NCBI GenBank assembly: GCA_016946835.1
Contig: JACVTC010000065.1
Span: 753,501-817,500 of the forward strand
Length of the DNA: 64,000 nucleotides
From: Neocallimastix lanati (nom. inval.)
Lineage: Eukaryota > Neocallimastigomycota > Neocallimastigomycetes > Neocallimastigales > Neocallimastigaceae
Reading direction: 5' to 3'
Position numbers and translations under genes: made by a program. The notes below the pieces were generated by a model, which worked only from the letters and a program-made list of their open reading frames with translations, was not told the DNA's origin and made no database searches. Each line of letters starts with the position of its first letter. The first letter of the stretch is position 1. Shown piece by piece: positions 24,909 through 55,502 of this stretch.

Positions 24909-25741
24909 TGTAATAATTCTATTAAGAACTAACTCAAAATAGAATTATTAACTACAACTTAACGACTAATTCATTAAATTGAGAAAATAAAATAAAATAA
25001 TTTTTTTTTACCTATAGAGTTTATTATAAAATTAATTATAATAATAACACAAAAAGCAAAAGAAGAATTGTTTGTATAAATTTGATTTTAAAAATATGTT
25101 TTTGAATATATTTTTTTTTAATTTATTAAAGTTAAAAATATAAAATTGTTACTATTATAACTATGTTTTTTATAATAATAACTCTTGATTTCTCAAAGAG
25201 AACTCAAGAGCCTTATTTATATTTTTTTATGAAAATAAGGTTAAATAAGAAAGGGTTTTCTAATCTTAATAAATCTCTTATTTAGGAAAAGATTAGACAG
25301 AAAACCTAGATAAGTTTTCGATCGATATTCTATCCATATCGATCATCGCATTAATTAAGTAAAACCGATTACTTCTAAAAGTAATTGGGAAAAAACTTAA
25401 TTAACCGATTTTTTAATCTAATCAAATGATCGAAAATAAAAGAATAAAATAATAAAAGATATTTCGATCATATAATTTATCCTTATAAAAAATATAAAAT
25501 TAAATAGTTAATAAAATACATAATACATTATAAAATACAGAATACATTATAAAATACAGTATACAATAAAATACAGAATACATTAGTTACAGTAGAGAAA
25601 TTAATATATTGTAAATATATCATTTAAAATTAATTAAATAAATTTTGTTAAATTAATGAATATATAAAATTAAATTAAATAAATTTAATGAATAAATATT
25701 ATATGTAATTAAATAAAGTTATAGTTATAATAACTTAACTA
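24909..25741. repeat. Solo LTR E-prime, left part (split by insertion)
   Basis: Starts TGTAATAATT and shares several blocks with the solo LTR at 40587-41375 (for example AACTCTTGATTTCTCAA and AAAGATTAGA). It is interrupted at AACTA (25737-25741) by two tandem LTRs and resumes at 28140. Confidence 0.65.
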
Positions 25742-26922
25742 TGTAAAAGTTTTTAAGGTAATAGGTAAGATTCTTGCTATATCTTTCCTAGTTTGGGTTA
25801 AATTGGTCAGGTCAAGATGTTTTTATTAATTATAACAATTTAGTTAAATTTAAATAATAAATAACACACACAGAGTTTTATAATTAAGATTTCAATATTT
25901 AAGATTTATGTTTTATTAGAACTTTATTTAATATATATTTTAATAATAAATTTTAACTAAGATTAATATAAAAAATTATTTATTGTTATAACTAATTATT
26001 TAACTTTAAGTTAACACATTAAATTAATAATCTTACAAAGAATTCAAAATATGGAATTTCAAATCCTTTTTATACTAAACTAAAATAATAATTAACAATA
26101 TAATTAATTAATACATTATAATCTTGATATATTCATACATGTATATAAACTATATAAAATATAATAATAAAATAATATTGATAAGAATCTTTTAATACAG
26201 TAACTATATAAATTATTCATAAAACAATTTAATAATAAAACTAATTTAATAATAAAATATAAAATAAAATAAATTATTAAAACTAATTAAAAATTCTCTT
26301 TCGGAAATCTTTAGAATAATAAAAAATTCCTTAGAATCTTTTAGAAAATAATTGAATAAAATATATAATAATAAAATATATAAAACTTATAAAACTTATT
26401 TAAAATATTATAAAACTATTACTAATAACTAATTCTGTATTTTTAATTAATAATACAAATTAATAATATAATTTCCAAGTTAAGAGATTTATCTAATATA
26501 AATTTCTTAATTAATAATTTAGGGTCTTAAATAATTAAATTACATTTTTTTATATTTAAATATCTTTAAAGTCCAATATCTCGTTATCTAGTTGTCCAAT
26601 AAGGTTGATTTTAACATATGTTGTAGTTCTCGTCCGTAGCTTTCCAATGGATATAATTTTAGCGGGAATTTCAATATAATATTTCCATTATTTGTATCGT
26701 TGTTTTTCTTCATGTTATTTTTATCAAATTCTTAAGGGTTAAATTAAATTAAATTATCTTTAATAAATAAGTCCAAACCCTTTGGTTTCTAATTCTTTAA
26801 TGTTTCTAATATTTATTTTTATAATTAAAATCGCATTAAAATAATTTTTTGTCAATAACTAAATTAAATTTCAATTGATCTAATAGTGAATTTTAACTTC
26901 AAATCCACTAGTATTCGTGACA
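25742..26922. repeat. Solo LTR, first of a tandem pair
   Basis: 1181 bp, starts TGTAAAAG and ends TTCGTGACA. It is flanked on both sides by AACTA, a perfect 5-bp target duplication. No internal retroelement genes are present. Confidence 0.75.
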
Positions 26923-26927
26923 AACTA

Positions 26928-28139
26928 TGTAAAATTAAATTGAGTGTTTAGGTAAGATTCTTGCTATATCTTTCCTAGTTTGGGTTAAATTGGTCAGGTC
27001 AAGATGTTATTTTAATTATAACAATTTAATTAAATTTAAATAATAAATAACACACACAGAGTTTTATAATTAAGATTTCAATATTTAAGATTTATGTTTT
27101 ATCAGAACTTTATTTAATATATATTTTAATAATAAAATTAACTAAGATTAATATAAAAAATTATTTATTGTTATAATTAATTTATTAACTTTATGTTAAT
27201 AGTTTAAAGTAATAGATAAAGGTTAAAGGTTAATAATCTTACAAAGAATTCTAAATATGGAATTTCAAATCCTTTTTATACTAAACTAAAATAATAATTA
27301 ACAATTAATTAATACATTTTAATCTTAATATATTCATACATGTATATAAACTATATAAAATATAATAATAAAATAATATTGATAAGAATCTTTTAATAAA
27401 TTAACTATATAAATTATTCATAAAACAATTTAATAATAAAACTAATTTAATAATAAAATATAAAATAAAATAAAATAAAATATTAAAACTAATTAAAAAT
27501 TCTCTTTTGGAAATCTTTAGAATGATAAAGAATTCCTTAGAATCTTTTAGAAAATAATTGAATAAAATATATAATAATAAAATATATAAAACTTATAAAA
27601 CTTATTTAAAATATTATAAAACTCTTACTAATAACTAATTCTGTATTTTTAATTAATAATACAAATTAATAATATAATTTCCAAGTTAAGAGATTTATCT
27701 AATATAAATTTTTTAATTAATAATTTAGGGTCTTAATTAAATAATTAAATTACATTTTTTATATTTAAATATCTTTAAAGTCCAATATCTCGTTATCTAG
27801 TTGTCCAATAAGGTTGATTTTAACATATGCTGTAGTTCTCGTCCGTAGCTTTTCAATGAATATAATAATTTTAGCGGGAAATCACAATATAATATTTCCA
27901 TTATTTGTTGAGTTATCGTTGTTTTTCTTCATGTTATTTTTATCAAATTCTTAAGGGTTAAATTAAATTAAATTATCTTTAATAAATAAGTCCAAACCCT
28001 TTGGTTTCTAATTCTTTAATGTTTCTAATATTTATTTTTATAATTAAAATCGAATTAAGTAACTTTTGTCAATAACTAAATTAAATTTCAATTGATTTAA
28101 TAGTGAATTTTAACTTCAAATCCACTAGTATTCGTGACA
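26928..28139. repeat. Solo LTR, second of a tandem pair
   Basis: 1212 bp, starts TGTAAAAT, ends TTCGTGACA, closely similar to the preceding copy. It is separated from it by AACTA and followed by AACAA. Confidence 0.75.
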
Positions 28140-28189
28140 AACAAAGAAAATATAATTATTTTGTTGAAAATATTATATTTTCTTACACA
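28140..28189. repeat. Solo LTR E-prime, right end
   Basis: Ends TTCTTACACA like the solo LTR at 41375. It completes the LTR begun at 24909. Confidence 0.6.
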
Positions 28190-28193
28190 AAAT

Positions 28194-28764
28194 TGAAACA
28201 GATTGAAAATAAAGTTAATTTAGTAATTTCTTACTAAAAGTCTTTATTCTCATGTTCAAATATAACTAGATATACTAGTTAATAAAAAAAAAAAAGATAA
28301 AAGTAATTTTAATTTTATTTAAATATTTTATTAAGAAACTTATAATAATTAAATCAATTAGTTATTGATTTATTAATACATTTTGTTTTATTAAAATTAT
28401 AATTTATTAAAAATAATCATTTTAAAATATTATTATTAATATTATCTAATTTTTATAATGGCTAATTAAGAACAATTTTTAAAACTATTAATTTTTATTT
28501 CTATTTATATTAATTTTATATATATACTCTGTTTATAAATAATAAATTAACTATTAATAATAAACAATTAAATAAACAATTATTGTTTATTTTATATTAT
28601 TTTAATCTAATTATTATTAATTATGTATTATTTAAATATTTAATATTTTTATAATTTAAATGTTTATAATCTAAAAATTAATTACTTTATTATAATTTAA
28701 TTATTTATTATTTTTAAATTCCATTTTATAATTATTTTTAATTTTTAATTTTCATTCTTTATCA
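28194..28764. repeat. Putative solo LTR H
   Basis: 571 bp bounded by TG at 28194 and CATTCTTTATCA at 28764, with spacers AAAT and AAA to its neighbours. Assigned by edges and position in the chain only. Confidence 0.45.
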
Positions 28765-28767
28765 AAA

Positions 28768-29520
28768 TGATAAATTTTAGAAATTATCTTAATTTTAATA
28801 TAGAATTAAAAAGTGATAATTTCAATTTATTTTAATAATAACTGTATAAGTTATTTATGAATTAAAAAAATGTTTTATTAAAAATAACACTAAAATTTTG
28901 ATTTATTAGAACACTTGTTTTCTAATATTTTATTTTATAAATCTTTTATTAAAATTTATTAAACATTATAAAATTTAAAAGTGATTATTAAAATTATAAA
29001 ATTAATGAATAATAATAATAATAATAATAATATTTACATGAAATATTTACAAGTATTTATATTTTTCTTTAAAATTAAACTATTTATAATTTATAAATAA
29101 AAAGAATAATTAAATAAAATAAAAGTAATAAAATTAATAATAAAATAAATATTTAATAATAAAATAAATAAATTTGTTTATTATAAAAATAATTAAAAAT
29201 ATTTTGTTATTAAATTAATTAATTTTGTTATTATAAAAATATTATTTAATTATAAAATTAATTATAAAAATTATTATAAAACTAATTATAAAAATTAATT
29301 ATTTTATTTTAAATTTAATCTTAATATTTTTATTTTGAAAAATATATAATATTTCTTTCATATCTGAGTATTAATGTAATTTTTAAGTGTAATTTATTTG
29401 TTTTAATTAATTAATTAATTAATTTTTTTATTTTATTAAATTATTATTAAACTTTGCTAAGGTTAGTTTTGATTTTATGTATAATAAATTTTCAAGATTT
29501 ATTAATTTTGTTATTTATCA
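28768..29520. repeat. Solo LTR G (same family as the E1 LTR)
   Basis: Starts TGATAAATTTTAG and ends TTGTTATTTATCA. The first ~60 bases align with the E1 LTR at 3034. Spacers of AAA on both sides. Confidence 0.65.
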
Positions 29521-29523
29521 AAA

Positions 29524-30980: not shown

Positions 30981-30984
30981 AAAA

Positions 30985-31961
30985 TGATACTATATTTTAT
31001 TTATGTATCTAAATTAATATTTATTTATGGGCAATGACAATAAGGAATTATGACAAAATAATATATTCTATTATTAAATAGAAATAACACATACAATAAT
31101 ACAAAATAAAGTAATAATTATATCTTTTTAATGTTCTCTTTATTTATTATTAATTATTAATTATTACATCAATTATTATTATTATTACTCTTTTATATAA
31201 ATATTATAATTAATTATCTCAAATATATATAATATCTCTTTTAACTATACTAAACTAAAATATAAAAATAGCTATTTATGTGAATTAATTTATCATCATT
31301 AGTATAAACTTATAAATAAAAGAATTCTCCGTTTATTAATTATTATTCTAAAATTATATATATTATTATAAAATTATTATTGACCAATAATATTTAAGTA
31401 TTTCTTTAATGTTAAAGTTTTGTGATAATTTGGTCTTAACGATTAGGTCAAGATGCCAAATTATAGTAATTAATTAATAATTTAAATTTACTCTTATTTA
31501 AAACATATTATTATTAGTAAATTTTATAAATAAGTTTTATTTAAAATATAAATTTTATTTAATCTTGATAATATTTTATTACATTATTATTTTATATAAT
31601 TATTACTCTAATTTAAATTACAATAATCCTACAAAGGATTAATCAAAAGATTTAAACATGTATTTATATAAAATAATTAATTATTAAAATATTAATTATT
31701 AATATGAATATGTAATAGTATTAATATAAGTTTGATATTGATAATATAAAGTAAGATAATAATATAAATATTTAATATAAATAAAATATAAGAATCTAAT
31801 ATAGCTAAATATTATATTTTAGTTATAAAATATAATATGTAAAAATTAATTTAATATGACAATCACGTGTTTACATTATTTAATATATATTAATTTCAAT
31901 ATGTAAATAATATTTAGTCAATTAGTTGGCCTAGACTATTTCATAAATATTTTAATAATAA
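30985..31961. repeat. Solo LTR D, left part (split by chromovirus)
   Basis: Starts TGATACTATATT directly after AAAA. It is interrupted by the chromovirus at the duplicated target AATAA (31957-31961) and finishes at 38888 with CACGTATCA. The whole is about 1.1 kb with ends of the TGATAC/GTATCA type. Confidence 0.7.
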
Positions 31962-32736
31962 TGTAAAGATATTATTAATATCTTTATAAATTTTAATTAA
32001 ATTTAATCATAAATTTAAGTAAAATTGAAATAAATCTATTAAAAATCACGTGTATAAAATTATTGCAAATAATTTTAAACAAAACTTCGACTTCTTCCCA
32101 ATCATATTAATAAATTAAAAATTTCTCTTGTGAAACTAGTAATTGAAAATCATTTCTTTTTATGTAATTTAATTTAAATAATAAGAGTTAAGGTTTTTTA
32201 CAAGATAAATTAACAACATGAAACTATGCAATTAGTCATGTTGAAACTTGCGGCATTTTATGCTAAAATCATATTAAATAATTATGACAACTTTTATATT
32301 AATTTTAAATAGAAAATATAATAAGAATTTATTAATAATATTTAAATAATAAATAAATAATAAATGAGCTCGATTGAAATTGTTTATATTTATTTTAGTT
32401 ATTAATTATAATTCTCTTTATTTAGTAATAGTTAATTATTTATTATTAGTTTAGGTTAGTATTGTTTTTAAATAAATAGTTAGATAATATAATTCAATAG
32501 GAATTATATATTCTAAATGTAATAAGATAAAAATATAAATAGTTAACCAAATTTCATGTATTTTAATCGATGTAATTGTTATTAACGATTTATTGTTAAT
32601 AACACTAATAATTAATAAAGATTATTTTAAAATCTAAATACAATAAAACTTATTTGTTTATAAAACATTTTTGTGTTATTTAGTGTTATTATAATTTTTG
32701 ACTTATAATCTATTTTTTTTAAATCAAAACTTTATA
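31962..32736 (+). repeat. 5' LTR of chromovirus
   Basis: 775 bp, matched over its whole length by 37974-38748. Confidence 0.92.
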
Positions 32737-33169
32737 ATAACAATTACCTTTTTCTCTCAATAAAATACGTTATAAGTCAAGATTATAACACGTGATACGT
32801 TAACAGTGGCTTGTGTGTGGCTTGATTCAAAATATTTTTTTTACCAGTTTTAGATTATTGCTACCAGTTTCAGAATATTGCCACCAGCTCTATAATATTG
32901 CTACCGAAATTACAATTACACGTCTTAGAACAAGATTCGAAAAACCATAAACCTTTAATATTTTAATTTATAACGTTACGTTTACTCGACAGCACCGCTT
33001 CAAAGGATAGAGCTAGATCGACTAGATGAAAAAACGTTATAGTTTGAAATATTTATTTGTTTGATATTTTTGTTAAAGAAATTGCAAAAATTTAAGTCAA
33101 TTTAAAATAATCAAATTGGAGGGATTTAACAACCTAATAAGAAGATTCGAAGACCTTAACCTGCAAGAA

Positions 33170-36100
33170 ATGAATCAAGAGAATCATCAAGTTCTGCCCC
33201 GTAACAATCAAAAGATTGTTAACGAACCACCGCTATTTTCTGGAATCAAGAAGGACTTTGATGGCTTCCTTACAAGAGCTGAAATAGCTATGGAAGCCAA
33301 TCCACAAGGTTTCAATAACGACCATACAAAGGTCAGATTTATAATTTCTTATCTTGTCGGTGATCCCTTGATATGGGCCTCAAACTTGCGAAGAAATAAT
33401 GATCCCCTGCTCAATGTTTATGAAGATTTTATTCAAGAATTAAGAAATCAATTTGGAGAGCAGGACATGAGCACAGTTGTCGCAAACGGTAAATTATGCA
33501 GCATCCGACAACATAAATTTGGTCATGTTAGTGAGTATATAAATGAATTTAATAAAATCAGCAGACATTCAGATTTTAACGATTCTGCTAAGATTTATAT
33601 GTTTGTAAAAGGACTTCACTACAAGATGAGGGAGCACCTTGCAGTGGTAAATCCAAATCCCAACAACTTAAGAAGACTTTTCACTGATGTCCTTAGTATC
33701 GAAAGCTTAACTAAGAGACATGAAATAAATGAATTTTTCTATCATAATTATTACCATCATAAGGAAATAAATAATAATAATCATGCGTCTACTAGTGACC
33801 CAATGGAAATAGATTTATACAGAATTAAGAGAGGACAAACGAATACAAGTTACTTCCCTTCTAACCAGAAATTATATCAAGAAAACTCGAATTCAAGAGA
33901 TGAAGAAAGAAGGAAAGGATTGTGCTATTATTGTAAAAAACCAGGTCATCGCTATTTTAACTGTCCAAATAAGAAGAAACCTGCCGGAGTCAAGATTATC
34001 AGTAAACAAGAAAACACCGCTACCACACCCTCAAGTAGTTTAAGAAGAATTAGAAGAATCAACAGCCAAGAAGATATTGTCAAAGTTAGAAAAATCGTGG
34101 AAGAACAAAACTCACTTTTGACAAAGAAAAGTAATATCATTGATTTCTATATTAAAACAAACGATATAGAAGAAGTAAAAGCAAGAGTTCTGATCGATTC
34201 TGGTTCTGATCTTAATTTTATCCATCCTGAATTCGCTAAAGCCTTTGGAATTAAAACAAAAGAAATCGAAGAACCTTTCCGTGTTACTGGTCTTGGATAT
34301 GGTGTTTCATCAGTAAAAAAGGAAACTGAGAAATGCGTTCTTCGTTTAAGGAACCACTTGGAAACGATTCAACTCTATGTTCTCAGGATTCCTGATGTTG
34401 ATATTATCTTGGGTTTACCATGGATCAATAAGCACTCCCCCTACAACTACCATGACGCAAAGAAGATTTCTTTCGGATCCGGTTTCTGTGCAAGACATTG
34501 TAACAATGGTAAAAGAAAAAGGAAAAACAAGAACAAGAAAAGGAACAAAGGAAAAGAACCTGCTACCAACCTAGAAGAAAACAAAGTTATTATTGAAGAA
34601 TCAAGAAAAAGAAAACCTCTCTTTGACTCTGATTCCGACTCTGACTCAGAAGAAGAAATTTCTATTCGTGGCCGCCGAACTCGTATTAGAACTTGCTCTG
34701 AATTTAATAATTATGATAGTGATAGTGATATTAATGATACTTTTATGTTAGATAATTTTAGTGATAGCATTAGTGATAGTGATAACTTTAGCGATAGTGA
34801 TGATATTATTGTTATGAATTGTGATAGTAAAATTAGTACTAATAGTTTAAGGATTTTAAAGAAAATTTGTGAATCTAGTAAATGTAAGAAATTAAATGTA
34901 ATTGAAAAATGTAATGATGAAGATAATAATTTAAATAAAGATGGTGAAAAGGTCGAAGTACCTGAAATCTATTTGATGTTTAAAGAAGTGTTTAATGAAA
35001 ATAATTGTAATGTGTTACCTCCGCATCGTAATTATGATTGTGAAATTAAATTAAAAGATAATTGTAGTCTATTTTATGGTCCGTTGTACCCTTTAACTGA
35101 AACGGAGAGAGAAGAATTAAAGAAATATTTAGAAGAGAATTTAAAAAAGGGTTTTATTAGGAAATCTTCTTCTCCTGCTGGTGCACCTATTTTATTTGTT
35201 AGAAAAAAGGATGGTACTTATAGACTAGTTATTGATTATAGAAAATTGAACGAAATGACCATCCGTAACTCTTATCCACTTCCTTTAATTAGTGAATTGT
35301 TGGATAGAGTTAAAGGTGCTAAATATTTTACTAAGTTAGATTTAAAATCTGCTTATAACTTAGTAAGAATTAAAGAAGGTGACGAGTACAAAACTGCCTT
35401 TCGTACAAGATATGGGCACTTTGAATATCTCGTTATGCCTTTTGGGCTTAAGAATGCCCCTGCTACATTCCAACATTTTATAAATGATGTTCTCAGTGAT
35501 TACTTAGATGATTTTGTAATCTCTTACATTGATGACATTTTAATTTATTCTAATACTTTGGAAGAACATCATGTACATGTTAAGAAAGTTTTAAGAAAAT
35601 TGTTAGAGAATCATTTAGTTGTTAAATTAGAAAAGTGTGAATTTGATGTAACTGAAACTACCTTTCTTGGTTATGTTTTATCAAGAGATGGAATTAAAAT
35701 GGATAAAGAAAAAGTTAAAGCAATTTTAGATTGGCCTGTTCCAACAAACGTTAAAGAAATTCAATCGTTTATTGGACTTTGTAATTATTACAGAATTTTT
35801 ATTAAAGACTTTGCGAAAATTGCAAATCCTCTCCACAAATTAACTAGAAAAAATGTTCCTTTTAATTGGAGTTCTGAACAACAAAAAGCGTTTGATACTT
35901 TAAAAGAATTATTTACTACTGCTCCTATTTTGAAACATCCTGATAGCAACAAACAATTCATTGTTGAAACTGATGCTAGTAATTTTGCTGTTGGTGCAAT
36001 TCTTTCTCAGGAATTTGATGGGCATTTGCATCCAATTGCTTTTATTTCTACTAGCTTAACTAAATCCCAAAGAAATTACCCTATCTATGACAAAGAACTT

Positions 36101-37936
36101 CTTGCTATTAAAGTTGCATTGGAAGGATGGAGACATTACTTAGAAGGAGCTCGCCATCAGTTTATTATTTATACTGATCATAAGAATTTAACTTTCCCTC
36201 GAAAACCTGAACTTCTTTCCCAACGCCAAATTCGTTGGTATGAATTCTTATCTAGATTTGATTTTAAACTAATTTACAGAGCTGGTAAAAAGTCAGGTAA
36301 ACCAGATATTTTATCAAGACGTAGTGATCATTTATTTGCTAGTGTTCGTCCTATTTCATGCGTTATTAATTCATGTAGTTTTAAGAATGATTCTTTAATC
36401 TCCTCTATTCATGATTCTCTAGCTAATGATGAATTCTATTGCAAAACAACTGAATTTCTTAAAAATGATAAATCAAAAGATCCCCCTTTTAGTAAAATCG
36501 ATAAATTTTCTCTTGACAAAAATGGTTATTTACTTTTTGAAAATTTAATTTATGTTCCCAATAAAATTAGAATAAGAGTTTTAGAACTCCATCATGACTC
36601 TATTTCTGCTGGTCATTTTGGAATTAATAAAACTATTGAACTTATTTCTCGTAATTTCTGGTGGCCTAAATTACAAAAAGATGTTAAAATGTTTATTAAA
36701 TCTTGTGAAATTTGTTCAAAATCCAAAATCCCAAGACATAAGCCATATGGTTTACTTTCTCCACTTTCTACACCAAATAGAGCCTGGTCTGATATCTCTA
36801 TGGATTTTATTGTTGAACTTCCGAAATCCAAAGATATGACCACTATAATGGTTGTTGTGGATCGCTTAACTAAAATGGCTCATTTTATACCTTTTAGATG
36901 TCTTCCTACTGCTTCTATTGCTGCTGATTCTTTCATTGCTAATATTTTTAAACTTAATGGTTTCCCCGATTCTATTATTTCTGATCGTGGTTCTCAGTTT
37001 ACCTCTGATTTTTGGAATCGTCTTTGCTCTCTTTTAAATATTAAGCATTCTTTTTCTACTGCTTATCACCCGCAGACCGATGGTCAAACGGAGAGGGTGA
37101 ACTCGATATTGGAACAATATCTTCGTTGTTTCATCAATGAAAAGCAAAATAACTGGCTTGATTTATTACCTTTTGCAGAATTTTCCTATAATAATACTTT
37201 ACAATAGTCAATAAATCAATCACCATTTTTTGCAAATTATGGTTTTAATCCGAAATTTAATCCTGAAATTCCTTCAAATGAGAATCCGCATAGAGCTGAG
37301 AAAAGAATATTAAATATTAATGAAAACATTAAATTTTTAAAAGAAAACTTAGAGCAAGCAAAAAAGACTTATAAGAAATATGCAGATCTGAAAAGAATGG
37401 ATTCTCCAGATTTTAAAGTAGGAAATAAAGTTTATCTTTTAAAGGGTAATACAACAAAGAAAAATAGAAAATTATCTGATCAACTAATAGGACCTTTTGA
37501 AATAATAAGAAAAGTTAGTGACTTAGCGTACGAACTTAAACTTCCTAATAATATGCGTTGTCACCCTGTATTTCATGTTTCACTTCTCGAACCTTATCAT
37601 GAAAATGAATTTTCAAACAGAAGAAATACTCGTAGAAGAAATATTAATCTTAATACGGATACAATTGATAGAACTCCTGAAAGAATAATTAAAATGAAAA
37701 CCTTTAACAATAAGAATCGTTACTTGATTAAATGGAAAGGATGCGATTTTAGTGAAAATACTTGGATTGATGAAGATCAAATTCTTGATAGACAATTAAT
37801 ACAAGAATATTACAGAAAAGAAAAGAAGAACAAATCTTCGAATGTTAACAACGAATTCTGTCAACCACCTGATGATGCAAACGAGTACTATGTTAGACAT
37901 AAATATCAACCTTTTGTAATTGATCTTCCTTCTTAA
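33170..37936 (+). pseudogene. Chromovirus gag-pol polyprotein with one premature TAG
   Basis: The frame is open from 33077; the first ATG is at 33170 (MNQENHQ). Codon positions from there: Gag domain 1-200; CCHC knuckle CYYCKKPGHRYFNCP near 251; aspartic protease VLIDSGSDLNFI near 342; a Ser/Asp-rich acidic stretch (about 480-545); reverse transcriptase with YIDD near 786; RNase H VETDASNFAVG near 932; integrase HHCC zinc finger (about 1143-1182) and D,D-35-E (MDFIVEL, SDRGSQF, TDGQTE); a GPF-type module near 1440; chromodomain (YLIKWKGCDFSENTWI) near 1510. TAG at 37205-37207 interrupts the integrase just after YNNTLQ. The frame resumes without a shift and continues to 37936, so a single nonsense change separates it from a full-length 1.6-kb-codon protein. 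Gag and Pol share one frame here, unlike E1-E5. Confidence 0.9.
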
Positions 37937-37973
37937 AGTTAATCTCGCAGGAGCTCGACTTAAGGGGCGAGAT

Positions 37974-38748
37974 TGTAAAGATATTATTAATATCTTTATA
38001 AATTTTAATTAAATTTAATCATAAATTTAAGTAAAATTGAAATAAATCTATTAAAAATCACGTGTATAAAATTATTGCAAATAATTTTAAACAAAACTTC
38101 GACTTCTTCCCAATCATATTAATAAATTAAAAATTTCTCTTGTGAAACTAGTAATTAAAAATCATTTCTTTTTATGTAATTTAATTTAAATAATAAGAGT
38201 TAAGGTTTTTTACAAGATAAATTAACAACATGAAACTATGCAATTAGTCATGTTGAAACTTGCGGCATTTTATGCTAAAATCATATTAAATAATTATGAC
38301 AACTTTTATATTAATTTTAAATAGAAAATATAATAAGAATTTATTAATAATATTTAAATAATAAATAAATAATAAATGAGCTCGATTGAAATTGTTTATA
38401 TTTATTTTAGTTATTAATTATAATTCTCTTTATTTAGTAATAGTTAATTATTTATTATTAGTTTAGGTTAGTATTGTTTTTAAATAAATAGTTAGATAAT
38501 ATAATTCAATAGGAATTATATATTCTAAATGTAATAAGATAAAAATATAAATAGTTAACCAAATTTCATGTATTTTAATCGATGTAATTGTTATTAACGA
38601 TTTATTGTTAATAACACTAATAATTAATAAAGATTATTTTAAAATCTAAATATAATAAAACTTATTTGTTTATAAAACATTTTTGTGTTATTTAGTGTTA
38701 TTATAATTTTTGACTTATAATCTATTTTTTTTAAATCAAAACTTTATA
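37974..38748 (+). repeat. 3' LTR of chromovirus
   Basis: Copy of the 5' LTR with about two substitutions, followed by target duplication AATAA (38749-38753). Confidence 0.92.
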
Positions 38749-38888
38749 AATAATTATTATATTATTAATTATTAATATTGAAATTCAAATAACTGAATTA
38801 TTGAAATTGAAATTGAAATTCAGTTATTATCTTAACATTTAACCTAAAGAATCTACCTAAATACCATTTTTATAGTGGTCACGTATCA
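38749..38888. repeat. Solo LTR D, right part
   Basis: Continuation of the LTR begun at 30985. It ends GTGGTCACGTATCA and is followed by AAA and another LTR. Confidence 0.65.
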
Positions 38889-38891
38889 AAA

Positions 38892-39359: not shown

Positions 39360-39365
39360 AAAAAA

Positions 39366-40583
39366 TGATACGGGCTGGGGTTGAAACACTAAGATATTCA
39401 AAACAAAAAAAAATAAATATTAACACATAACTATAAAAATAAATTTGGAAACAAGAAAAAAAATTAAATTTTAAAATATTCTTTATTTAAATTTAAAATT
39501 AAAATTATTTGTTCCCCAGTATTAAAACGAAAGAAATTTATTCTTCTTTTTATACTTTTATTTTAATACATTTTATTTATTATTAATATATTCTTTATAA
39601 AAAAAACTATTATAACTATTTTATTTTAATTTTTAACTATTATTTTAAATTATTTTTTTAAAAAAAAAAAAAATAACATTTATTAAATTAAAATATAAAA
39701 AATTAATTTGGAGCTTGTATCACGAAGGGCATTCCGGGCGGTAGCTTCTTCTTGATATTGTTTTTCAGAGAGAGAATTATACAGAATTGATATTTTCTGT
39801 ATTTTAGATCATTTTTATTATTGGAATTCTTCTGTATTTTAGTTCATTTTTATTTTAATAAAGATTTAATTTATTTTTAATTTTTGTTTTATTTTTAGTT
39901 TATTTCAAAGGTTTTAGAAAATATTATACAGAAACTTATAATTCTGTATTTTACATCAAATATTTATTGAAATAGGTTTTTATTATTCTTAATATAAAAA
40001 TAAGAATTAGTAATGATTTAAATATTATATAATTTTTAATAAGAATATTTAGTAATAATTTTTATTATATTTAATATTAATAAAATATTTAATAATTATT
40101 TTTATTAGATTTGATATTAATAAAAGATTTTAATAAGAATATTTAATAATAATTTTTATTATATTTAATATTAATAAAAGAATTTTATAAGAATATTTAA
40201 TAATAATTTTTATTATAAAAGATTTTAATAAGAATATTTAATAATAATTTTTATTATATTTAATATTAATAAAAGAAATTTATAAGAATATTTAATAATA
40301 ATTTTTATTATATTTAATACTAATAAAAGAATTTTATAAGAATATTTAATAATAATTTTTATTATATTTAATATTAATAAAAGAAATTTATAAGAATATT
40401 TAATAATAATTTTTATTATATTTAATATTAATAAAAGAAATTTATAAGAATATTTAATAATAATTTTTATTATATTTGATATTAATAAAAGATTTTAATA
40501 AGAATATTTAATAATAATTTTATTTTATTATTATTAAGAGTATTTAATAGGAAATACAAGGTATTTAGTGACACCCCGTATCA
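39366..40583. repeat. LTR-like repeat C, copy 2
   Basis: 1218 bp, same ends and left part as 29524-30980 but fewer ~54-bp tandem units (about nine, 40030-40515). Confidence 0.75.
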
Positions 40584-40586
40584 AAA

Positions 40587-41375
40587 TGTAATAATTTCAT
40601 TATAATATTTATTATAACAAAATTATTAACTACAACCTGATACTAACATCAAGTTGAGAAAATAAGAAAACAATTAGAAAAAATAAAGAAAATTTTAACT
40701 TATCTTGACAGAGAAGAGTTTATTATAAACAAATATAATAAACAACACAAAATAAAAGAACACTTATTGAAAATGTTTGTAGATTTTATTAATTATTATT
40801 ATATATTTATTAATATTTGTTATATAATAATAACTCTTGATTTCTCAAAAATTTAGAGAAATCAATAGCTATTTATACGAAAAATTAAATAATAAAATTT
40901 AATAAATTTTATATAAAATAATAATTTAAAAGGTTTTCTAATATTAACAATTATCTTATCTAGAAAAAGATTAGAAGAAAAAACTAGATAAGTTCTTTAA
41001 GGAAAAACCAATTTATTATTATAATAAATTAGAAAAAACCTTAAAGTCCGATAAAATTAATTTATATTTTAATAAGAAAATAAAAAAACTTTAAAGTCCG
41101 TTAATTCAAATTTTAATTAAAAATAATAATTAAATAATTAATTTATTACTAAAATTTATAATTAATTAAATAAAATTAAATAAAATAAATGTATACTAAA
41201 TAAATTTAAAGAAAAAATTTTTTAATTAAATTAAAACTATAATTAAATGTACAAATACATGTTAACTTGATAAATAATTACTAATTTAATGAATGAATGT
41301 ATAAATTATATAATAGATAAATAATCAAATAAAGAAATTATAATTATTTAACAAATAATTATAGTTTCTTACACA
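40587..41375. repeat. Solo LTR E
   Basis: 789 bp, starts TGTAATAATTTC, ends TTTCTTACACA. Related to 24909-28189. Spacers AAA (left) and AAAA (right). Confidence 0.65.
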
Positions 41376-41379
41376 AAAA

Positions 41380-42169: not shown

Positions 42170-42192
42170 AGATGCCCCCGCTAAGACTCAAG

Positions 42193-48399: not shown

Positions 48400-48403
48400 A
48401 AAA

Positions 48404-49192
48404 TGATATGGTTCATATAATTTTAGGAATATAATAATAATTAACACAAATAATAAAATTACAATAAAAAAAAAATAATTTGTTTTAAAATCAATATTTA
48501 TTTATTTAAATTTATAAAAGAAAAATAATAATATAATTATTTATTTAATAAAAAGAAAGTTATTGATTATATTTTATTTCACTAAAATTACATGTATTTA
48601 TATTTTTTTATCAAATTAAAATTTGTAAAGCCTAACTATTTTTTTAATAAACTAATTACTAATTATTTTTATAAATAAAACATTTAAATTGAAATTGAAT
48701 TATTATTTTAGTTAATAATATTATTGTTATAAATAGTAGTTATATATTATTGAATTATTAATTATTTAATAATAGTTTAATACTAATATATATAAAATAA
48801 AAATAAAGAGATTATACAGAATATTTTATTGTGGTTTAGTTAAATTTAGTAATTAAAAATAAATTTAAATTGATAACGAAAATTTTAATAACTAATTAAA
48901 TAGATTTGATTATTTTCAATATAACATAATACAAAAGAAATATAATATTAATATATTAAGTGGGCAAGGACAATATTCTTGGCTAAAGATTTTTAATGCA
49001 TTATAATGGAATCGGATCGATAATTCAAAAAGGAATTATAAGTTAATTAGTGATTTATTAACTTAAGATTTCTATTTAGTAATATTTGAAGAATATTGGA
49101 AAGTTCCAATTATATAGAATAGAATAATCTATAAGGTTAGAATAATTTATATTATTCTAGCACAATTAGTATTATTTGTTCATTCTGTATTA
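48404..49192 (-). repeat. 3' LTR of E5
   Basis: 789 bp, starts TGATATGG, ends CTGTATTA. Confidence 0.92.
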
Positions 49193-49215
49193 AGATGCCC
49201 CCGCTAAGACTCAAG

Positions 49216-52200
49216 CTAGGTAGAAGCTGAGTTAAACTTGACAATATTTTTCAAATGAACATTACGATTCATTTGTATATTAGTAGAAGGATCAGCTAAA
49301 GTGACTGTATTGAATTGTTTCTTTACCACTTTCATAGGTCCAACAAAGTAAGGTTCTAATTTAGTTCGATTAAAGTTTCTTACTAGTACTAAATCACCTG
49401 GTTTTATTCTTTTAGCTTGATTCATACTGGTCTTTTCTTCTCTCCTAGTAGCCCAATATTTCGAAGCATTTTTGATATTAGATGCGGCCTCCATTACCCA
49501 TTGGTAGTGTGATACAAATTTTTCCAGTAGAATTTCGTCAGAAGACTTATTTATACCCTTAGTTGGTCTGGCAGCAATGTCAAAAGGTTGTTGGTCCTCC
49601 CTTCCATAAACTAATTCAAAACTTGAATGGTTGGTGATTGAGTTTTTAGTAGTTCTTAAAGCCCAAAGTGCAGATGGTAAAATTTCATCCCATTCTTTGT
49701 GTTGTTGTCCTAGTAATCGTAATAATTTTCCAATTTCTTTATTACGATTCTCAACTAAACCATTGCTTTCAGGATGATATGGAGTGATAAATTTAACATA
49801 TACATCATATAAATCAAGGAAGATTTTTGTCATATCTGATGTAAATTGTGTTCCATTATCAGTAGTGATAATTTGAGGTACACCGTGTCGAGCAAATACA
49901 TTAATTAAAAATTTTATCACGTCCTGAGAAGTAACATTTTCAGTGGGCTCTGCCTCAATCCATTTAGTAAAATAATCAACCACAACGATTATATATTGAT
50001 TATTATTTCTGGTTTTACTTAGAGGTCCTATAATGTCCAATCCTAAGTGTGTAAATGGTCCTTCCACTTCAGTTGGTTTATCTTCCGTTGGTTCAGGGTA
50101 TGGTTGAGATTTATTTAATTGACATTTTTCACATTTACCTATAATTCGCTTAATGTCATTAACCATATTGTTCCAATAGTAGCTCTTTTTCAAACGTTGG
50201 TATGTCTTGTAATAGCCTTCGTGTCCTATACTGTGTGCTTGAAAAATTAATTGAAGTTTTTCTTTTGTATCTGTAACTAATTTTCTATAATTATTGCCAT
50301 CAACAAAGTAGTCCACACCATCAATTGTCGTAAATTTTTCTTCAATAAATTCCTTAATGGTTCTTGAAAGCAGGTTTTCATCTTGTTCCTTGATAATTTG
50401 TGTTGTTAAGACAACTTTTTCTTTTTCATTTTTCATTCTTGATAAAGCATCTGCGACAACATTATTCTTTCCAGTTTCATATCGTAAATCAATTCCTAAC
50501 ATACTGACAGTCAAACACCATCTAGTATGACGAGAATTTTGTGGTTCCTTACTTTTAAGTAATCCGATTAATGGTCTATGATCTGTATATACTATAGTTT
50601 GCTTAGGATTTCCCATAATATAAGATTTTAATTTATTAATACAGTAAATTAGAGCAGCACCTTCTAGATCCGTAATTCCATAATTCTTTTCCGATTTAGA
50701 TAAACTTCTACTAATATAATGAACCGGATGCTCCTTTCCAGTTTCATCATCCTTTTGTAAAAGCACACCGCCTATTCCATCATAGGAAGCATCTGTTCTT
50801 ATAATAAATTCTCTATCAAATCTAGGAAATCTTAATATTGGGGCATTGATTAATCTTTCCTTAAGAATTTTAAAACTTTCTTCTTGTTCCTTTTTCCATT
50901 CAAACTTAACACCTTTTCTTAATAGAGTGCATAGAGGTGCAGTAACTTTTGCAAAGTCCTTAATGAAATTTCTATAATATCCAATGGCTCCTAAAAATGA
51001 TCGAAGTTCATGAATGTTAGAGGGAGCCTTCCATTCTCTAATAGCTTTAACTTTGTTTTCCAATGGACTTAAACCTTCTGAGGATACTTTATGTACCAGT
51101 ACTTCTACTTCAGTTTGCATGAAAGAACATTTTTCAATATTGATTTTTAACTTATGTTCCTTGAATATTTCTAAGACTTGTTTAACATGTTCTAGGTGTT
51201 CTTCTTCAGTTCTTGAGTAGATTAAAATATCATCGATAAAGTTATAGACACATTTTCCTATTAAGGGAAATAGTATACGGTTCATTTCTCTTTGGAATGT
51301 AGCTGGAGCACCTGTTAAACCGAAGGGCATTACCTTGAATTGGTAGTTTCCGAACTTAGTTGTAAAGGTAGTGATTTCAACACTATCATCATCCATTAAT
51401 ATTTGATGATAACCGGAATAAAGATCTAATGTTGAGAAGATTTTTGCTCCATCTAAGCTATCAAAAATTTCCTCAATATTTGGTAAAGAATAAGAATCCT
51501 TCTTAGTTGCTTCATTTACTTTCCTATAGTCAATACACAGGCGCCATTTACCGTTCTTTTTAGGCACAAGTACTACTGGTGATGACCATTCTGAACATGA
51601 AGGTTCAATTAATCGTTTATATATGAGTTTGGTTAATTCTTCTTTTAAGATATCTGTTTTTAATTTACTAAGTCGATAAAATTTTTGTTTAATAGGTTTA
51701 ACTCCTTCCTTAAGAATAATTTTGTGTGGTGATAAATCTGAAGGTGTTAATTCTTCAGAAGAAGTTGCAATTATATCAATATATTCTTCAAGTAATTTAG
51801 TAATAGCTTCTCTATAATTTGAATTAATTGTACTTTGAAAAACTGTGTTATATATATATTTTATGGGTGGTAATCCTTCAATCGTTTTCAATTGTTGCTT
51901 AGCTTCTTGGTGATTCAATGCTTTGATTACACATAATAATTTTTCTTCGTCATCATATTCATTATTAATAGGTGCAATTTCTTCAATTAAACCTTGATCA
52001 TTAAATCGACAAAGACTATATCTAATTGGATGTATAAATAACTGGTTATCAATTTGAGTTTTGAGGTTGATTAATATATCATAGAATGGATCCTCCTTGT
52101 CTATAATTCTACACGTAACAAGTAGTTCTAGTTCATTAATTTTTACGGGAACTTTGATTAACACATCTTCTGAGTAATCATCATTCATCGTTGCTAAACG

Positions 52201-53217
52201 TATTCGTCCTGCACTAACTCCTATAGGTTCATACTGATAAGGTAATTTATCTAAAAATTGCTTTGTGATAATACTTAAGTTGCTACATGAATCTATTAAA
52301 GCCTTACCACGAACTCCATCTACTATTACATCAACCATAGCAATATCATCTTCTTGTGGTTCATGATGTTTACTTTTATATGTATGATCTATATTGTTCG
52401 TTATTATTGTAGTAGCACACATATTATCCACTGCACCTGAAATTTTAGTATTATTCTTTTCTAATTTAAGTCCTTGTGATACTTGAGACCGTATCTTTGG
52501 AGCAACGTCCAATAATTGTCCAAATGTAATATTGCAATTACTGGAGTTTAAATCTTTGATCACGTCATAACTATCACAATCAGTTTGCATTTGTATTCTT
52601 CTTGGAATTCTAGTTGGCATAATTTCAGTTGACTTTTCTGATGATTTTTCTTGAATTAATTTATTTAAAGTTTGTTTAGAATTATTTTCTTCCTGAGAAG
52701 TTTCTTCATTAATAACATTAACAATACTATTTTTATTATTTTCCACAGAAGTACTAGTACTAGCTCTTTCCTTATCTCTTAGCTCTTTCTCAATCCTCTT
52801 TTCTTTCTCTATTCTGGGTTGAGCCATAATCGAAGGATGTAATTGAGTTGTTGGCTTTTTGACTGGTCGCGATGTTCCCCTTAATTGATTTTCTTTTTGT
52901 TTTCGTAAACCTGGAGTAACTATTGGCTTAGGATCATCTCTTAGACTACGGTGAACCCTCTTTCCTCTTTGGTCACTAGTCTCTTCATCTTTAGGATTTG
53001 CCTTTCTCTTTATAACGTTTACTAAGTAATCCAATTCTTTGGAACCATCCGACTCATCATCAAAATCTTCGTAATAATCCGTAGTAGTACCTTCTTGGAA
53101 ATCAGCAATTTCTTCATAATCATCATCTTCTTTTAAGTCAACTGTTTTGGGACGATGGCAGACTGAAGCAATTTTTTTGACGATGGGAGTGCTTCTACTC
53201 CCTTTTAGTGGTTTAAA
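49216..53217 (-). CDS. Pol polyprotein of E5 (protease, RT, RNase H, integrase)
   Basis: Open from the slip site (53217) to the stop at 49216; the first in-frame ATG is at 53034. Same domain order and motifs as E4: D-S-C protease, FIDD reverse transcriptase, RNase H, zinc-finger and D,D-35-E integrase. Differences from E4 are conservative: V for I in NVINEE, E for G in SQEENN, R for K in RIPRR, S for A in LADPSTN. No stop or frameshift, so this may be a functional enzyme set. Confidence 0.93.
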   Translation of the reverse strand, partial: FKPLKGSRSTPIVKKIASVCHRPKTVDLKEDDDYEEIADFQEGTTTDYYEDFDDESDGSKELDYLVNVIKRKANPKDEETSDQRGKRVHRSLRDDPKPIVTPGLRKQKENQLRGTSRPVKKPTTQLHPSIMAQPRIEKEKRIEKELRDKERASTSTSVENNKNSIVNVINEETSQEENNSKQTLNKLIQEKSSEKSTEIMPTRIPRRIQMQTDCDSYDVIKDLNSSNCNITFGQLLDVAPKIRSQVSQGLKLEKNNTKISGAVDNMCATTIITNNIDHTYKSKHHEPQEDDIAMVDVIVDGVRGKALIDSCSNLSIITKQFLDKLPYQYEPIGVSAGRIRLATMNDDYSEDVLIKVPVKINELELLVTCRIIDKEDPFYDILINLKTQIDNQLFIHPIRYSLCRFNDQGLIEEIAPINNEYDDEEKLLCVIKALNHQEAKQQLKTIEGLPPIKYIYNTVFQSTINSNYREAITKLLEEYIDIIATSSEELTPSDLSPHKIILKEGVKPIKQKFYRLSKLKTDILKEELTKLIYKRLIEPSCSEWSSPVVLVPKKNGKWRLCIDYRKVNEATKKDSYSLPNIEEIFDSLDGAKIFSTLDLYSGYHQILMDDDSVEITTFTTKFGNYQFKVMPFGLTGAPATFQREMNRILFPLIGKCVYNFIDDILIYSRTEEEHLEHVKQVLEIFKEHKLKINIEKCSFMQTEVEVLVHKVSSEGLSPLENKVKAIREWKAPSNIHELRSFLGAIGYYRNFIKDFAKVTAPLCTLLRKGVKFEWKKEQEESFKILKERLINAPILRFPRFDREFIIRTDASYDGIGGVLLQKDDETGKEHPVHYISRSLSKSEKNYGITDLEGAALIYCINKLKSYIMGNPKQTIVYTDHRPLIGLLKSKEPQNSRHTRWCLTVSMLGIDLRYETGKNNVVADALSRMKNEKEKVVLTTQIIKEQDENLLSRTIKEFIEEKFTTIDGVDYFVDGNNYRKLVTDTKEKLQLIFQAHSIGHEGYYKTYQRLKKSYYWNNMVNDIKRIIGKCEKCQLNKSQPYPEPTEDKPTEVEGPFTHLGLDIIGPLSKTRNNNQYIIVVVDYFTKWIEAEPTENVTSQDVIKFLINVFARHGVPQIITTDNGTQFTSDMTKIFLDLYDVYVKFITPYHPESNGLVENRNKEIGKLLRLLGQQHKEWDEILPSALWALRTTKNSITNHSSFELVYGREDQQPFDIAARPTKGINKSSDEILLEKFVSHYQWVMEAASNIKNASKYWATRREEKTSMNQAKRIKPGDLVLVRNFNRTKLEPYFVGPMKVVKKQFNTVTLADPSTNIQMNRNVHLKNIVKFNSAST
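53185..53217 (-). promoter_or_regulatory. -1 ribosomal frameshift site, E5 gag/pol
   Basis: Identical to the E4 site: T TTA AAC (53217-53211), 8-nt spacer, GGGAGT (53202-53197), 6-nt loop, ACTCCC (53190-53185). Confidence 0.92.
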
Positions 53218-54122
53218 TAATTTTCATAAAACTTCTTGCGGTTATTTTCCAATATAGAATTTAATTTAGGACAGTTTCGTTTGGTATGTCCTTCATTGCT
53301 ACAAAACCAGCAAGTACTAATTTTCATTTCTTTCATCTTGTTAGTGAGATTTTCTATAGATACATTTTTGTGGGTTTTTGGTTTGTTAAAATCATTTGAA
53401 ATGTTCTTATTAAAATTACTTTTAGAGTTAAGGAGATTGTAACGAGTCTTATCATAATATTCAGTACTATTTTTAATAGATAAACGATCAACTTTTTCAG
53501 CTATAGCGAATGCTTTGGTAATAGAAATATGGTCTTTAAGCATAACCTTTCTCCATGCGTCAGGATTATTGGTTAAGGAATCTGCATAATCTAAAACACT
53601 AATTTTTCTTCTTCTCTTTTTATCCAATTTATGGTACAAAGATCTATAACGGACATTAAAATCTTTAACTTTCTCGTTCTTCTTTATTTTCATGGAACGC
53701 AATTCTCGTAACAAGTTGGTTTGATCTTCTTTAAGTCCATAGAAAGTCTTCAGATGATTTATGATTTCATCAAGGCTTGGGTAGGTGCTAGTAGATTCAC
53801 TTTCTTCATCATCTTCTCCTTCACTATCGCTATCGAAATCAGAATCTTCATCTTCAGTAAGGTCATTTCCATCTTCTAGTTCTTGGATAATTTCTCTTGG
53901 TTCTCCAAAAGCCGTTAATATACAAGCAGTAAAAATAGTTTCAGGATCCTTGATATGTTGGTATTTTATCCATGCCTTTAACTCATTTGCCCAGGAGTTG
54001 ATGTCAAGGTTTTGTTTAGTAAGCTTTTCAAAATCTTTTAATTCTTTCTTTAATTCTCTGAAGCTAAGCTTACTTTCTGGAGTACTCTCTGTTGGAGTAC
54101 TGGAAGTACTGGATGTTCTCAT
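53205..54122 (-). CDS. Gag of E5
   Basis: 305 aa, identical to the E4 Gag except Phe for Ser in TAFGEP. It has the same acidic insert and the same CCHC knuckle CWFCSNEGHTKRNCPK. The last codons overlap the frameshift heptamer. Confidence 0.92.
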   Translation of the reverse strand: MRTSSTSSTPTESTPESKLSFRELKKELKDFEKLTKQNLDINSWANELKAWIKYQHIKDPETIFTACILTAFGEPREIIQELEDGNDLTEDEDSDFDSDSEGEDDEESESTSTYPSLDEIINHLKTFYGLKEDQTNLLRELRSMKIKKNEKVKDFNVRYRSLYHKLDKKRRRKISVLDYADSLTNNPDAWRKVMLKDHISITKAFAIAEKVDRLSIKNSTEYYDKTRYNLLNSKSNFNKNISNDFNKPKTHKNVSIENLTNKMKEMKISTCWFCSNEGHTKRNCPKLNSILENNRKKFYENYLNH

Positions 54123-54627
54123 AAAATAAAATTTATTGTATCTATAGAATGCTAAACCTCGTAATGTATAAATTGTTATAAAAAAGTAAAAATAAAAAAA
54201 ATTAAAAAAAATAAATCTTTTAACTAATAAAATTATTAATTATTTATTATTATTAATCACTTATTAAATTATAATAATCGTGCAATCTGATAGTACACAC
54301 TGTCTGACGTGCAGCTTACCTCTTGAAAGGTGTCATGCCACGCGTGTGCCACGGTTACTATTTTCAATATAAAAAATAGCAGTCCAGAGCCTACTAGCCC
54401 AATTACTATGTAGGATAAACTTAACCCGGAAATCTATGCACGAATATTAGTTTAATTTAATATTAATTAATATTTTTAACAATTAATAATAATTAGTTAA
54501 AAATATAAAAATTGTTTTTTAAAAAAAATTATTTGTTTTATTAGAAAAATTATTTATTAATATTATAATTTTATCCCTAATGTATTAATTTATTATTATA
54601 TTCCCCGATATCTCCACCAATTTTTCA
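54123..54627 (-). other. E5 leader with GC-richer block and primer-binding site
   Basis: Conserved copy of the E4 leader. The GC-richer block is about 54278-54448; primer-binding site TGGTGGAGATATCGGGG on the minus strand (54619-54603), eight bases inside the LTR. Confidence 0.6.
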
Positions 54628-55416
54628 TGGTATGGTTCATATAATTTTAGGAATATAATAATAATTAACACAAATAATAAAATTACAATAAAAAAAAAAT
54701 AATTTGTTTTAAAATCAATATTTATTTATTTAAATTTATAAAAGAAAAATAATAATATAATTATTTATTTAATAAAAAGAAAGTTATTGATTATATTTTA
54801 TTTCACTAAAATTACATGTATTTATATTTTTTTATCAAATTAAAATTTGTAAAGCCTAACTATTTTTTTAATAAACTAATTACTAATTATTTTTATAAAT
54901 AAAACATTTAAATTGAAATTGAATTATTATTTTAGTTAATAATATTATTGTTATAAATAGTAGTTATATATTATTGAATTATTAATTATTTAATAATAGT
55001 TTAATACTAATATATATAAAATAAAAATAAAGAGATTATACAGAATATTTTATTGTGGTTTAGTTAAATTTAGTAATTAAAAATAAATTTAAATTGATAA
55101 CGAAAATTTTAATAACTAATTAAATAGATTTGATTATTTTCAATATAACATAATACAAAAGAAATATAATATTAATATATTAAGTGGGCAAGGACAATAT
55201 TCTTGGCTAAAGATTTTTAATGCATTATAATGGAATCGGATCGATAATTCAAAAAGGAATTATATGTTAATTAGTGATTTATTAACTTAAGATTTCTATT
55301 TAGTAATATTTGAAGAATATTGGAAAGTTCCAATTATATAGAATAGAATAATCTATAAGGTTAGAATAATTTATATTATTCTAGCACAATTAGTATTATT
55401 TGTTCATTCTGTATTA
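54628..55416 (-). repeat. 5' LTR of E5
   Basis: 789 bp, starts TGGTATGG, ends CTGTATTA. It differs from 48404-49192 at only a few sites. Confidence 0.92.
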
Positions 55417-55431
55417 AAAATGATGTGGTGA

Positions 55432-55502
55432 GCGTTAATAGTATAGAGGTAGAATATTTGCCTTCCAAGCAAATGGCCCGGGTTCGATTCCCGGTTAACG
55501 CA
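55432..55502 (+). tRNA. tRNA-Gly (anticodon UCC)
   Basis: 71 nt. Acceptor GCGTTAA pairs with TTAACGC, discriminator A. The anticodon stem TTTGC/GCAAA encloses loop CTTCCAA, giving anticodon TCC. The T arm has CGGG-TTCGATT-CCCG with a good B box. No encoded CCA and no intron. The LTR of E5 ends 15 nt upstream. Confidence 0.96.

Follow-up and report, generated by a model that had tools for sequence, protein, structure and literature searches.

The window, a stretch of 64,000 nucleotides (nt) from the anaerobic fungus Neocallimastix lanati (contig JACVTC010000065.1, positions 753,501 to 817,500), contains a gene for a glycine transfer RNA (tRNA), tRNA-Gly(UCC), upstream of which long terminal repeat (LTR) retrotransposons, complete or as solo LTRs, lie end to end with short A-rich joints between them. 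A preliminary description had read this array as serial insertion beside the tRNA gene, each newcomer duplicating its target and moving older LTRs outward, a reading that is well supported and extends to other tRNA genes and to other joint letters. The nine joints listed there are real, since all spacers and the tRNA flank could be read directly, and the boundaries of the LTR ends were adjusted. The chain does not start at 24909, as had been assumed; a truncated LTR (Z) adjoins with AAC, and the chain thus reaches to 24222 at least. Its features are given outward from tRNA-Gly, with the strand where one applies (joints read from the sequence, or from the LTR ends for CAAAAA and CAAAAT).

55432..55502, plus strand: tRNA-Gly(UCC), anchor of the stack (ARAGORN; anticodon TCC in DNA)
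55417..55431, plus strand: tRNA-Gly flank AAAATGATGTGGTGA, read from the sequence; its first 4 nt are the target duplication
48404..55416, minus strand: I2, complete Ty3/gypsy element, 5' LTR adjoining the tRNA gene
48400..48403, plus strand: joint AAAA
41380..48399, minus strand: I1, second complete element, same family as I2
41374..41379, plus strand: joint CAAAAA
40587..41373: H, solo LTR TGTAATAA...TTACA, with the 5-bp duplication CAAAA on both sides
40584..40586, plus strand: joint AAA, extended to CAAAA by the CA that ends LTR G
39366..40583: G, LTR-like unit TGATACGGG...CCCCGTATCA with 54-bp repeats
39360..39365, plus strand: joint AAAAAA
38892..39359: F, solo LTR of about 467 bp
38889..38891, plus strand: joint AAA
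30985..38888: E, LTR of about 475 bp, split by the nested unit Q
30981..30984, plus strand: joint AAAA
29524..30980: D, LTR-like unit of the G family
29521..29523, plus strand: joint AAA
28768..29520: C, solo LTR TGATAAA...TTATTTATCA, nearest relative 99%
28765..28767, plus strand: joint AAA
28194..28764: B, solo LTR TGAAACAG...CTTTATCA, nearest relative 98%
28188..28193, plus strand: joint CAAAAT
24909..28187: A, LTR of about 880 bp TGTAATAATTC...TTACA, split by the nested units K1 and K2
24906..24908, plus strand: joint AAC (CAAAC; the other side of A is CAAAA)
24222..24905: Z, truncated LTR adjoining A, 94.8% identical to a copy next to a tRNA-Arg gene

By direct reading the innermost LTR ends 15 nt before tRNA-Gly. 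The LTR pairs of I2 and I1 carry 2 and 1 substitutions in 789 positions, respectively, and the LTRs of the two elements are 4-5 substitutions apart (four LTRs compared); because the LTRs differ more between the elements than within the pairs, I1 and I2 are separate insertions. The left copy of the duplication around H borrows its CA from the terminal two letters of the preceding LTR G. LTRs ending in TTACA account for the joints CAAAAT and CAAAAA, and the TGATAC-type LTRs of the chain end in GTATCA or TTATCA followed by 3-6 A, which, together with the CAAAA of H, indicates that the target is cut within a window of a few nucleotides and not at a single one. G and D belong to one family (95.1% identity over 1204 aligned positions), and LTR F recurs at no fewer than 39 further places in the genome. 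A diverged unit of the D/G type lies at 57552-58414 of the window, 84-85% identical to the best relatives compared.

The segment 30985-38888, previously taken for one stacked unit, is E split by Q, which in turn is split by a chromovirus, E-prime; LTR A is interrupted by two further units.

31410..38837: Q, nested LTR-like unit TGTTAAAG...CTTAACA, itself split by E-prime
31962..38748 (right end approximate), plus strand: E-prime, nested Ty3/gypsy chromovirus, duplication AATAA
25742..26922: K1, nested 1.2-kb unit TGTAAAAG...GTGACA, AACTA on either side
26928..28139: K2, nested 1.2-kb unit, AACTA before and AACAA after

Q is bordered by the duplication TTTAA (31405-31409 and 38838-38842) and ends 51 nt before the end of E, equal to 66 nt before the tRNA gene at the time when E was innermost. 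K2 ends 48 nt before the end of A, corresponding to about 65 nt before the tRNA gene when A was innermost; K1 and K2 are 93% alike, and both sit at AACTA (series AACTA, AACTA, AACAA). When E is rejoined without Q (111-nt flank), it is 97-99% identical to unsplit copies at three loci (L020, L048, L050), and A rejoined without K1 and K2 is about 90% identical to unsplit copies at L059 and L066. E-prime, identified as a chromovirus by a chromodomain found in this element alone (PF00385 at 3.5e-12), has 4 substitutions in 784 positions of its LTR pair; nested within Q, it is not part of the stack. The notion that every element had inserted at the site 15 nt upstream (-15) fails for Q, K1, K2 and the chromovirus, all nested, with Q and the K units placed at a second register. 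Empty sites were identified for nested Q and K only; the search for an empty site of the whole tRNA-Gly locus, proposed earlier as a check, found no LTR-free copy in the genome, and at L007 and L008, its nearest tRNA-Gly paralogs, different LTRs stop at 16 and 14 nt, respectively.

The window holds another stack, before a tRNA-Val gene.

21586..21660, plus strand: tRNA-Val(UAC), anchor of the second stack (ARAGORN)
11643..21572, minus strand: V2, element upstream of tRNA-Val, duplication AAGT/AAGT
11638..11642, plus strand: joint AAAGT of the tRNA-Val stack, read from the sequence
3717..11637, minus strand: V1, element adjoining V2
3708..3716, plus strand: C-like LTR end (TATCA) and joint AAAA, the outer end of the stack as seen

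The LTR pair of V2 is free of substitutions over 675 positions and that of V1 has 2 in 831; the joint AAAGT may be compared with the gene's own flank, AAGT.

The same distance recurs elsewhere in the genome (199 Mb in 762 contigs searched). The set examined comprises 74 non-duplicate tRNA units (7 duplicate rows having been removed from 81), drawn from three sequence searches and the window rather than from a full annotation, with 23 Gly, 18 Arg, 12 Cys, 10 Asn, 9 Thr, 1 Val and 1 Phe; in tRNA pairs (Cys-Gly, Asn-Arg) the first gene alone was counted. Repeat homology ends 9-19 nt before the tRNA gene in 47 of the 74 units, and in 42 of 68 when the six tied to the family-I query are left aside. 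LTR-like ends were recognised in 68 units, all at 10-19 nt and 55 of them at 13-17 nt, so that the exact nucleotide postulated in the preliminary description gives way to a narrow interval. LTR-end motifs, which were picked after inspection of the loci, number 40 per 5-nt bin in both bins between 10 and 19 nt, against 2-19 in the other bins out to 119 nt. The pattern TATCA-N3-33-tRNA-Gly (TATCA picked after LTR ends had been seen, and 6 of the 13 sites already in the sample) matched at 13 sites; in 12 the gap was 14-16 nt, and the last lay inside an LTR that itself ends at 16 nt. Both results, 47 of 74 breaks and 12 of 13 gaps, agree with Ty3-type targeting, in which elements insert a few base pairs at most from one point some 15 nt ahead of tRNA genes. 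The duplication is 5 bp long for TGTAA-type LTRs, and joints of the TGATAC type are mostly of 4 nt. Counts of TATAW upstream of the tRNA genes gave no peak at 20-40 nt. No LTR end was recognised near -15 at L019, L028, L032 (tRNA-Thr), L035 and L038 (tRNA-Arg); the three tRNA-Thr loci have a common flank and may be unoccupied sites, and L038, without a recognised LTR end at -15, yet has a unit at -66. At the four U6 loci fetched (6 matches) no LTR end was recognised. A 5S locus (L081:1486-1501) has CGTATCA 8 nt before the gene match, perhaps an unproven LTR end, and its flank showed no homology above the filter to the LTRs compared (4 5S loci fetched of 9 matches).

The A-only spacers are this tRNA-Gly locus's own target duplication. 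Spacers elsewhere likewise resemble their own nearest tRNA flank, as the preliminary description had required: in an eye-curated set of 21 loci, the two flanks of the innermost LTR agree with a mean score of 0.89 versus 0.47 when shuffled (top of 20,000 shuffles 0.68), with 12 perfect matches, 20 scores of at least 0.75 and one of 0.4 (examples are CACAA/CACAA, TTTA/TTTA, AACA/AACA and AAAC/AAAC). The stack at a tRNA-Asn gene on C67 has the joints CA, CA, CAC, ACACAC and CAC beside the flank CACGCAC, and that at a tRNA-Gly gene on C70 has ATTA, (CA)ATT, CAATTA, CACTT, CACTT and CAATTA beside ATTA. Joints of the form CGTATCA-N2-8-TGATACG occur 116 times in the genome versus 2 in a reversed-letter control, and chance is therefore insufficient to account for them. 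Among the 50 of these joints listed, 39 have spacers of 4 nt and 9 have A-only or T-only spacers (counted by eye); with just 9 in 50, joints at large are thus not A-only.

Ends of the Q/K type (TTCAACA, TTCGACA, TTAACA, TTGACA, GCGACA and GTGACA were scanned) lie 65-67 nt before the tRNA gene in 14 of the 74 units, with at most 2 in any other 10-nt bin out to 400 nt; the reverse-complement motifs, serving as control, reach a maximum of 4. Perfect 5-nt duplications accompany eight of the 14 units (ATTAA, CTAAG, TTTAG, AAATT, TAAAA, TGTAG, CTAAC and TTTAA), whereas shuffling yields a mean of 0.79 and a maximum of 5 in 20,000. At L021 two start candidates 663 nt apart are each preceded by AAATT, as in a two-unit stack. 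When the flanks of -66 units are joined, they match unsplit LTRs at 97-98% for L015, L016, L052 and L058 and at about 90% for L007 and L054, with short matches only for L038. The distance to the tRNA gene has a standard deviation of 0.76 (65-67 nt, 14 units) and that to the LTR end one of 1.76 (48-54 nt, 9 units); the former being tighter, the tRNA gene seems to be the anchor. Inverted pairs place units of this class in both orientations. Within the window two LTRs carry them, E with Q and A with K. Their TG...CA ends and 5-bp duplications suggest that Q and K may themselves be LTRs of retrotransposons. A K-type unit of 1.2 kb upstream of another tRNA-Gly gene (L073:2628-3808, on C70) ends 51 nt before the end of its LTR, consistent with the second register.

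The coding elements I1, V1 and V2 possess RVT_1, RNase H, H2C2 and rve domains in this order between LTR pairs, as is characteristic of Ty3/gypsy elements (Metaviridae). Identity in the pol core is 54% between I1 and V1; V2 is 53% identical to I1 and 65% to V1 (reverse transcriptase-RNase H only), and the pol of the nested chromovirus is 34-41% identical to those of the three. Judged by these sequences, the stacked coding elements appear to be branches of a single lineage, with three families compared; the earlier count of at least six families sharing the site is right or too low. A 49% relative of I1 pol bears the label Orpsp1_1, which we take to stand for Orpinomyces. No Chromo match was obtained for the I1 integrase at E up to 1, nor for V1 and V2 at 0.001, and the match of I1 to Ty3 (7q5b) stops 10 residues before the end of I1 and 108 before the end of the Ty3 chain. 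Targeting, if it proceeds via the transcription factor TFIIIB, must therefore rely on the integrase in some other region or on a domain that escaped the sequence search. As to orientation, the start of the innermost LTR was located in 41 units, of which 19 could be scored and 22 showed neither feature (solo, stacked or unclear). Just inside the innermost LTR, 18 units have a primer-site-like CCACCA (or CGCCA/CCATCA), implying transcription that points away from the tRNA gene, and one has a purine-rich tract; the scored full copies thus mostly face away, by 18 to 1, or by 13 to 1 without the five family-I units tied to the query (this stack and four loci found by its LTR end). A strict orientation was rejected, since 12 of 190 pairwise matches of innermost LTRs (not independent of one another) are inverted, and solo LTRs of some families occur in both orientations.

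Taken together, the positions, joints, duplications and unsplit copies observed are very probably explained by integration of a Ty3/gypsy lineage at a distance set by the tRNA gene, combined with a second register. Elements of this lineage would integrate mostly 13-17 nt before the tRNA 5' end and duplicate the local 4-5 bp, restoring the target letters beside the tRNA gene and shifting the previous LTR outward; with the letters restored each time, the site would stay available. Full elements would later be reduced to solo LTRs, presumably by LTR-LTR recombination, and repetition by many families would build stacks whose joints carry the local letters, A-runs at this tRNA-Gly, and whose order would be the order of time. 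Units of the Q/K type would use another fixed position, 65-67 nt before the tRNA gene, therefore landing about 50 nt inside the innermost LTR, and could stack as well.

Several observations weigh against this explanation. A clear break at 9-19 nt is lacking in 27 of the 74 units (13 without any, 9 at 20-59 nt and 5 below 9 nt, the last including the window's own tRNA-Gly through chance extension of homology), several tRNA units appear unoccupied at -15, and the D-like unit at 57552-58414 has ATTT on both sides and no detected tRNA nearby. The Q/K motif set was picked after examples had been seen, and 6 of the 14 units at -66 have no perfect duplication (2 had no start candidate). Two joints on C70 are CACTT rather than CAATT. 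A chain-level spacer score ranked the own flank first, alone or tied, in 3 of 5 stacks, and gave the window 3.56 with its own flank but 4.0 with that of C379; this score is too crude, because A-rich flanks resemble one another. The age order along the chain, finally, is weakly supported. Of the time-ordered record proposed earlier, the part that stands is that the two tRNA-proximal elements are the youngest; further out there is no monotone trend. The best relatives genome-wide reach 98% for H, F and B and 99% for C, which is out of order, and those of A, D, G and Z reach 94-95% among the collected sequences, where E and H had no relative above the filter; identity to the nearest relative bounds the age of an LTR only loosely.

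An alternative is that elements recognise an existing LTR end, such as the near-palindrome GTATCA-AAAA-TGATAC, and that the tRNA gene matters for the first insertion alone. The abundance of palindromic joints (116 genome-wide), the CACTT pair in the C70 stack and two joints with TTTG spacers 488 bp apart on C89 (tRNA context unchecked) speak for such self-targeting, but it fails to predict that LTRs of so many families, when innermost, stop 14-16 nt short of a tRNA gene, LTR ends other than GTATCA (TTACA, TATTA, TACCA, TTTCA) act alike, and the -66 units hold their distance to the tRNA gene more tightly (65-67 nt) than that to the LTR end (48-54 nt, 9 loci). It is accordingly considered improbable; K1 and K2, once candidates for evidence in its favor, were dropped as such, as the second register accounts for their position. 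Still less credible is an array built by tandem duplication or unequal recombination with the A-runs as junctions, even though D and G are of one family, the loci L069 and L070 (on two contigs) share the same three I-type LTRs joined by AAAA and look duplicated or allelic, and C-type LTRs on C379 are regularly spaced at 6.4 kb: neighbors in the chain are mostly of different families, the four tested genome-wide each having relatives of their own elsewhere, I1 and I2 keep four LTRs that differ more between than within pairs, and joint letters vary from tRNA to tRNA. On C379 (G000 C379:595856-615768) four C-type LTRs of equal identity follow one another every 6,385 bp or so, as tandemly arrayed elements with shared LTRs would. 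Equally hard to credit is that the assembly is at fault or that the A-runs arose by chance, common as such runs are in so A+T-rich a genome, since C- and G-containing joints elsewhere match their own flank and the same structure stands on many contigs.

Further features were recorded apart from the stacks. The protein encoded at 61393-63258 of the window is related to one from Neocallimastix californiae (76% identity across 76% of the query) and to one from N. lanati (61% across 84%), and a long tetranucleotide repeat, ATTT, occupies 58520-58800. One region, G000 C555:170732-399007, contains 34 of the 63 tRNA-model matches of one search, all on the plus strand; those fetched were tRNA-Arg, with some tRNA-Thr close by.

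Distance-set integration of this kind has counterparts. Ty3 of Saccharomyces cerevisiae, likewise Ty3/gypsy, integrates some 15 bp upstream of the mature tRNA and a few base pairs at most from the RNA polymerase III (Pol III) start, with a 5-bp duplication (PMC8632968, PMC5911963, PMC5006619). Its integrase chromodomain contacts TFIIIB (PMC8632968), whereas none was detected in I1, V1 and V2; Ty3 can insert in both orientations, in contrast to the predominant one of the scored full copies here; and duplications of 4 or 5 bp, many families per site and a second register near -66 also set the present system apart. In features, although membership is not claimed, the elements appear to work like DGLT-A of dictyostelids, a Ty3/gypsy element without chromodomain that integrates 13-33 bp before tRNA genes, with twenty insertions in D. 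discoideum in either orientation; the accessible portions of these sources (PMC5006619, PMC5911963) describe no deep multi-family stacks, although stacking as such is foreshadowed in dictyostelids. Tj1 of Schizosaccharomyces japonicus (Ty3/gypsy) inserts just upstream of tRNA genes with a 5-bp duplication and in a fixed orientation, the same direction as the Pol III gene (PMC4600332); here 18 of the 19 scored units point the opposite way. Ylt1, Tyl3 and Tyl6 (Yarrowia) as well as Beta and Tca8 (Candida) are Ty3/gypsy elements found a few base pairs upstream of tRNA starts (PMC5911963). Q and K resemble TRE5-A of Dictyostelium in keeping to a set window, which for TRE5-A lies about 40-54 bp upstream of tRNA genes (PMC5911963; PMC9012585), but TRE5-A is a non-LTR element, and Q and K have TG...CA ends, 5-bp duplications and a distance of 65-67 nt. 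In a literature search that did not extend to subscription papers, neither LTR elements directed to tRNA genes in anaerobic fungi nor an LTR register near -66 came to light. Targeting of the Ty3 kind is thus known; what looks new is the depth of the stacks, their locus-specific joints, the orientation and the second register.

By analogy with Ty3, integration may be guided by the Pol III initiation apparatus through TFIIIB. In the Ty3 structure TFIIIB spans positions -15 to -32 or so relative to the start site, and integration takes place between -2 and -6 (PMC8632968). A Ty3-like insertion would put the LTR end at the spot that TFIIIB occupies, so that reuse of the site would require an LTR end supporting TFIIIB binding; the existence of the stacks suggests that LTR ends may do so. 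The -66 units would in that case depend for guidance on a different face of this Pol III complex. A wider picture can be offered tentatively, as a possibility somewhat short of even chances: a single Pol III complex would serve two integration machineries at fixed offsets, about -15 and -66 and thus 51 bp or so from each other, on a self-renewing pad where the LTR end of each -15 insertion becomes the new initiation platform and both positions can be hit without limit. A chromodomain-less Ty3/gypsy lineage would have evolved to insert mostly facing outward at -15, the -66 units inserting in both orientations, and many tRNA genes would carry ordered, locus-tagged records of past retrotransposition.

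Ty3-type targeting serves as a model for harmless integration, and a shared spot upstream of tRNA genes at which the target letters are kept makes it possible to ask how a site stays usable after each insertion. It also raises the questions of whether integrases without a chromodomain reach TFIIIB in another way and whether the stacks can be read as ordered records of insertion. The bias in orientation runs counter to that of Tj1 and can be tested, and a register held at 65-67 nt to within about one nucleotide would indicate that the Pol III complex offers a second fixed contact.

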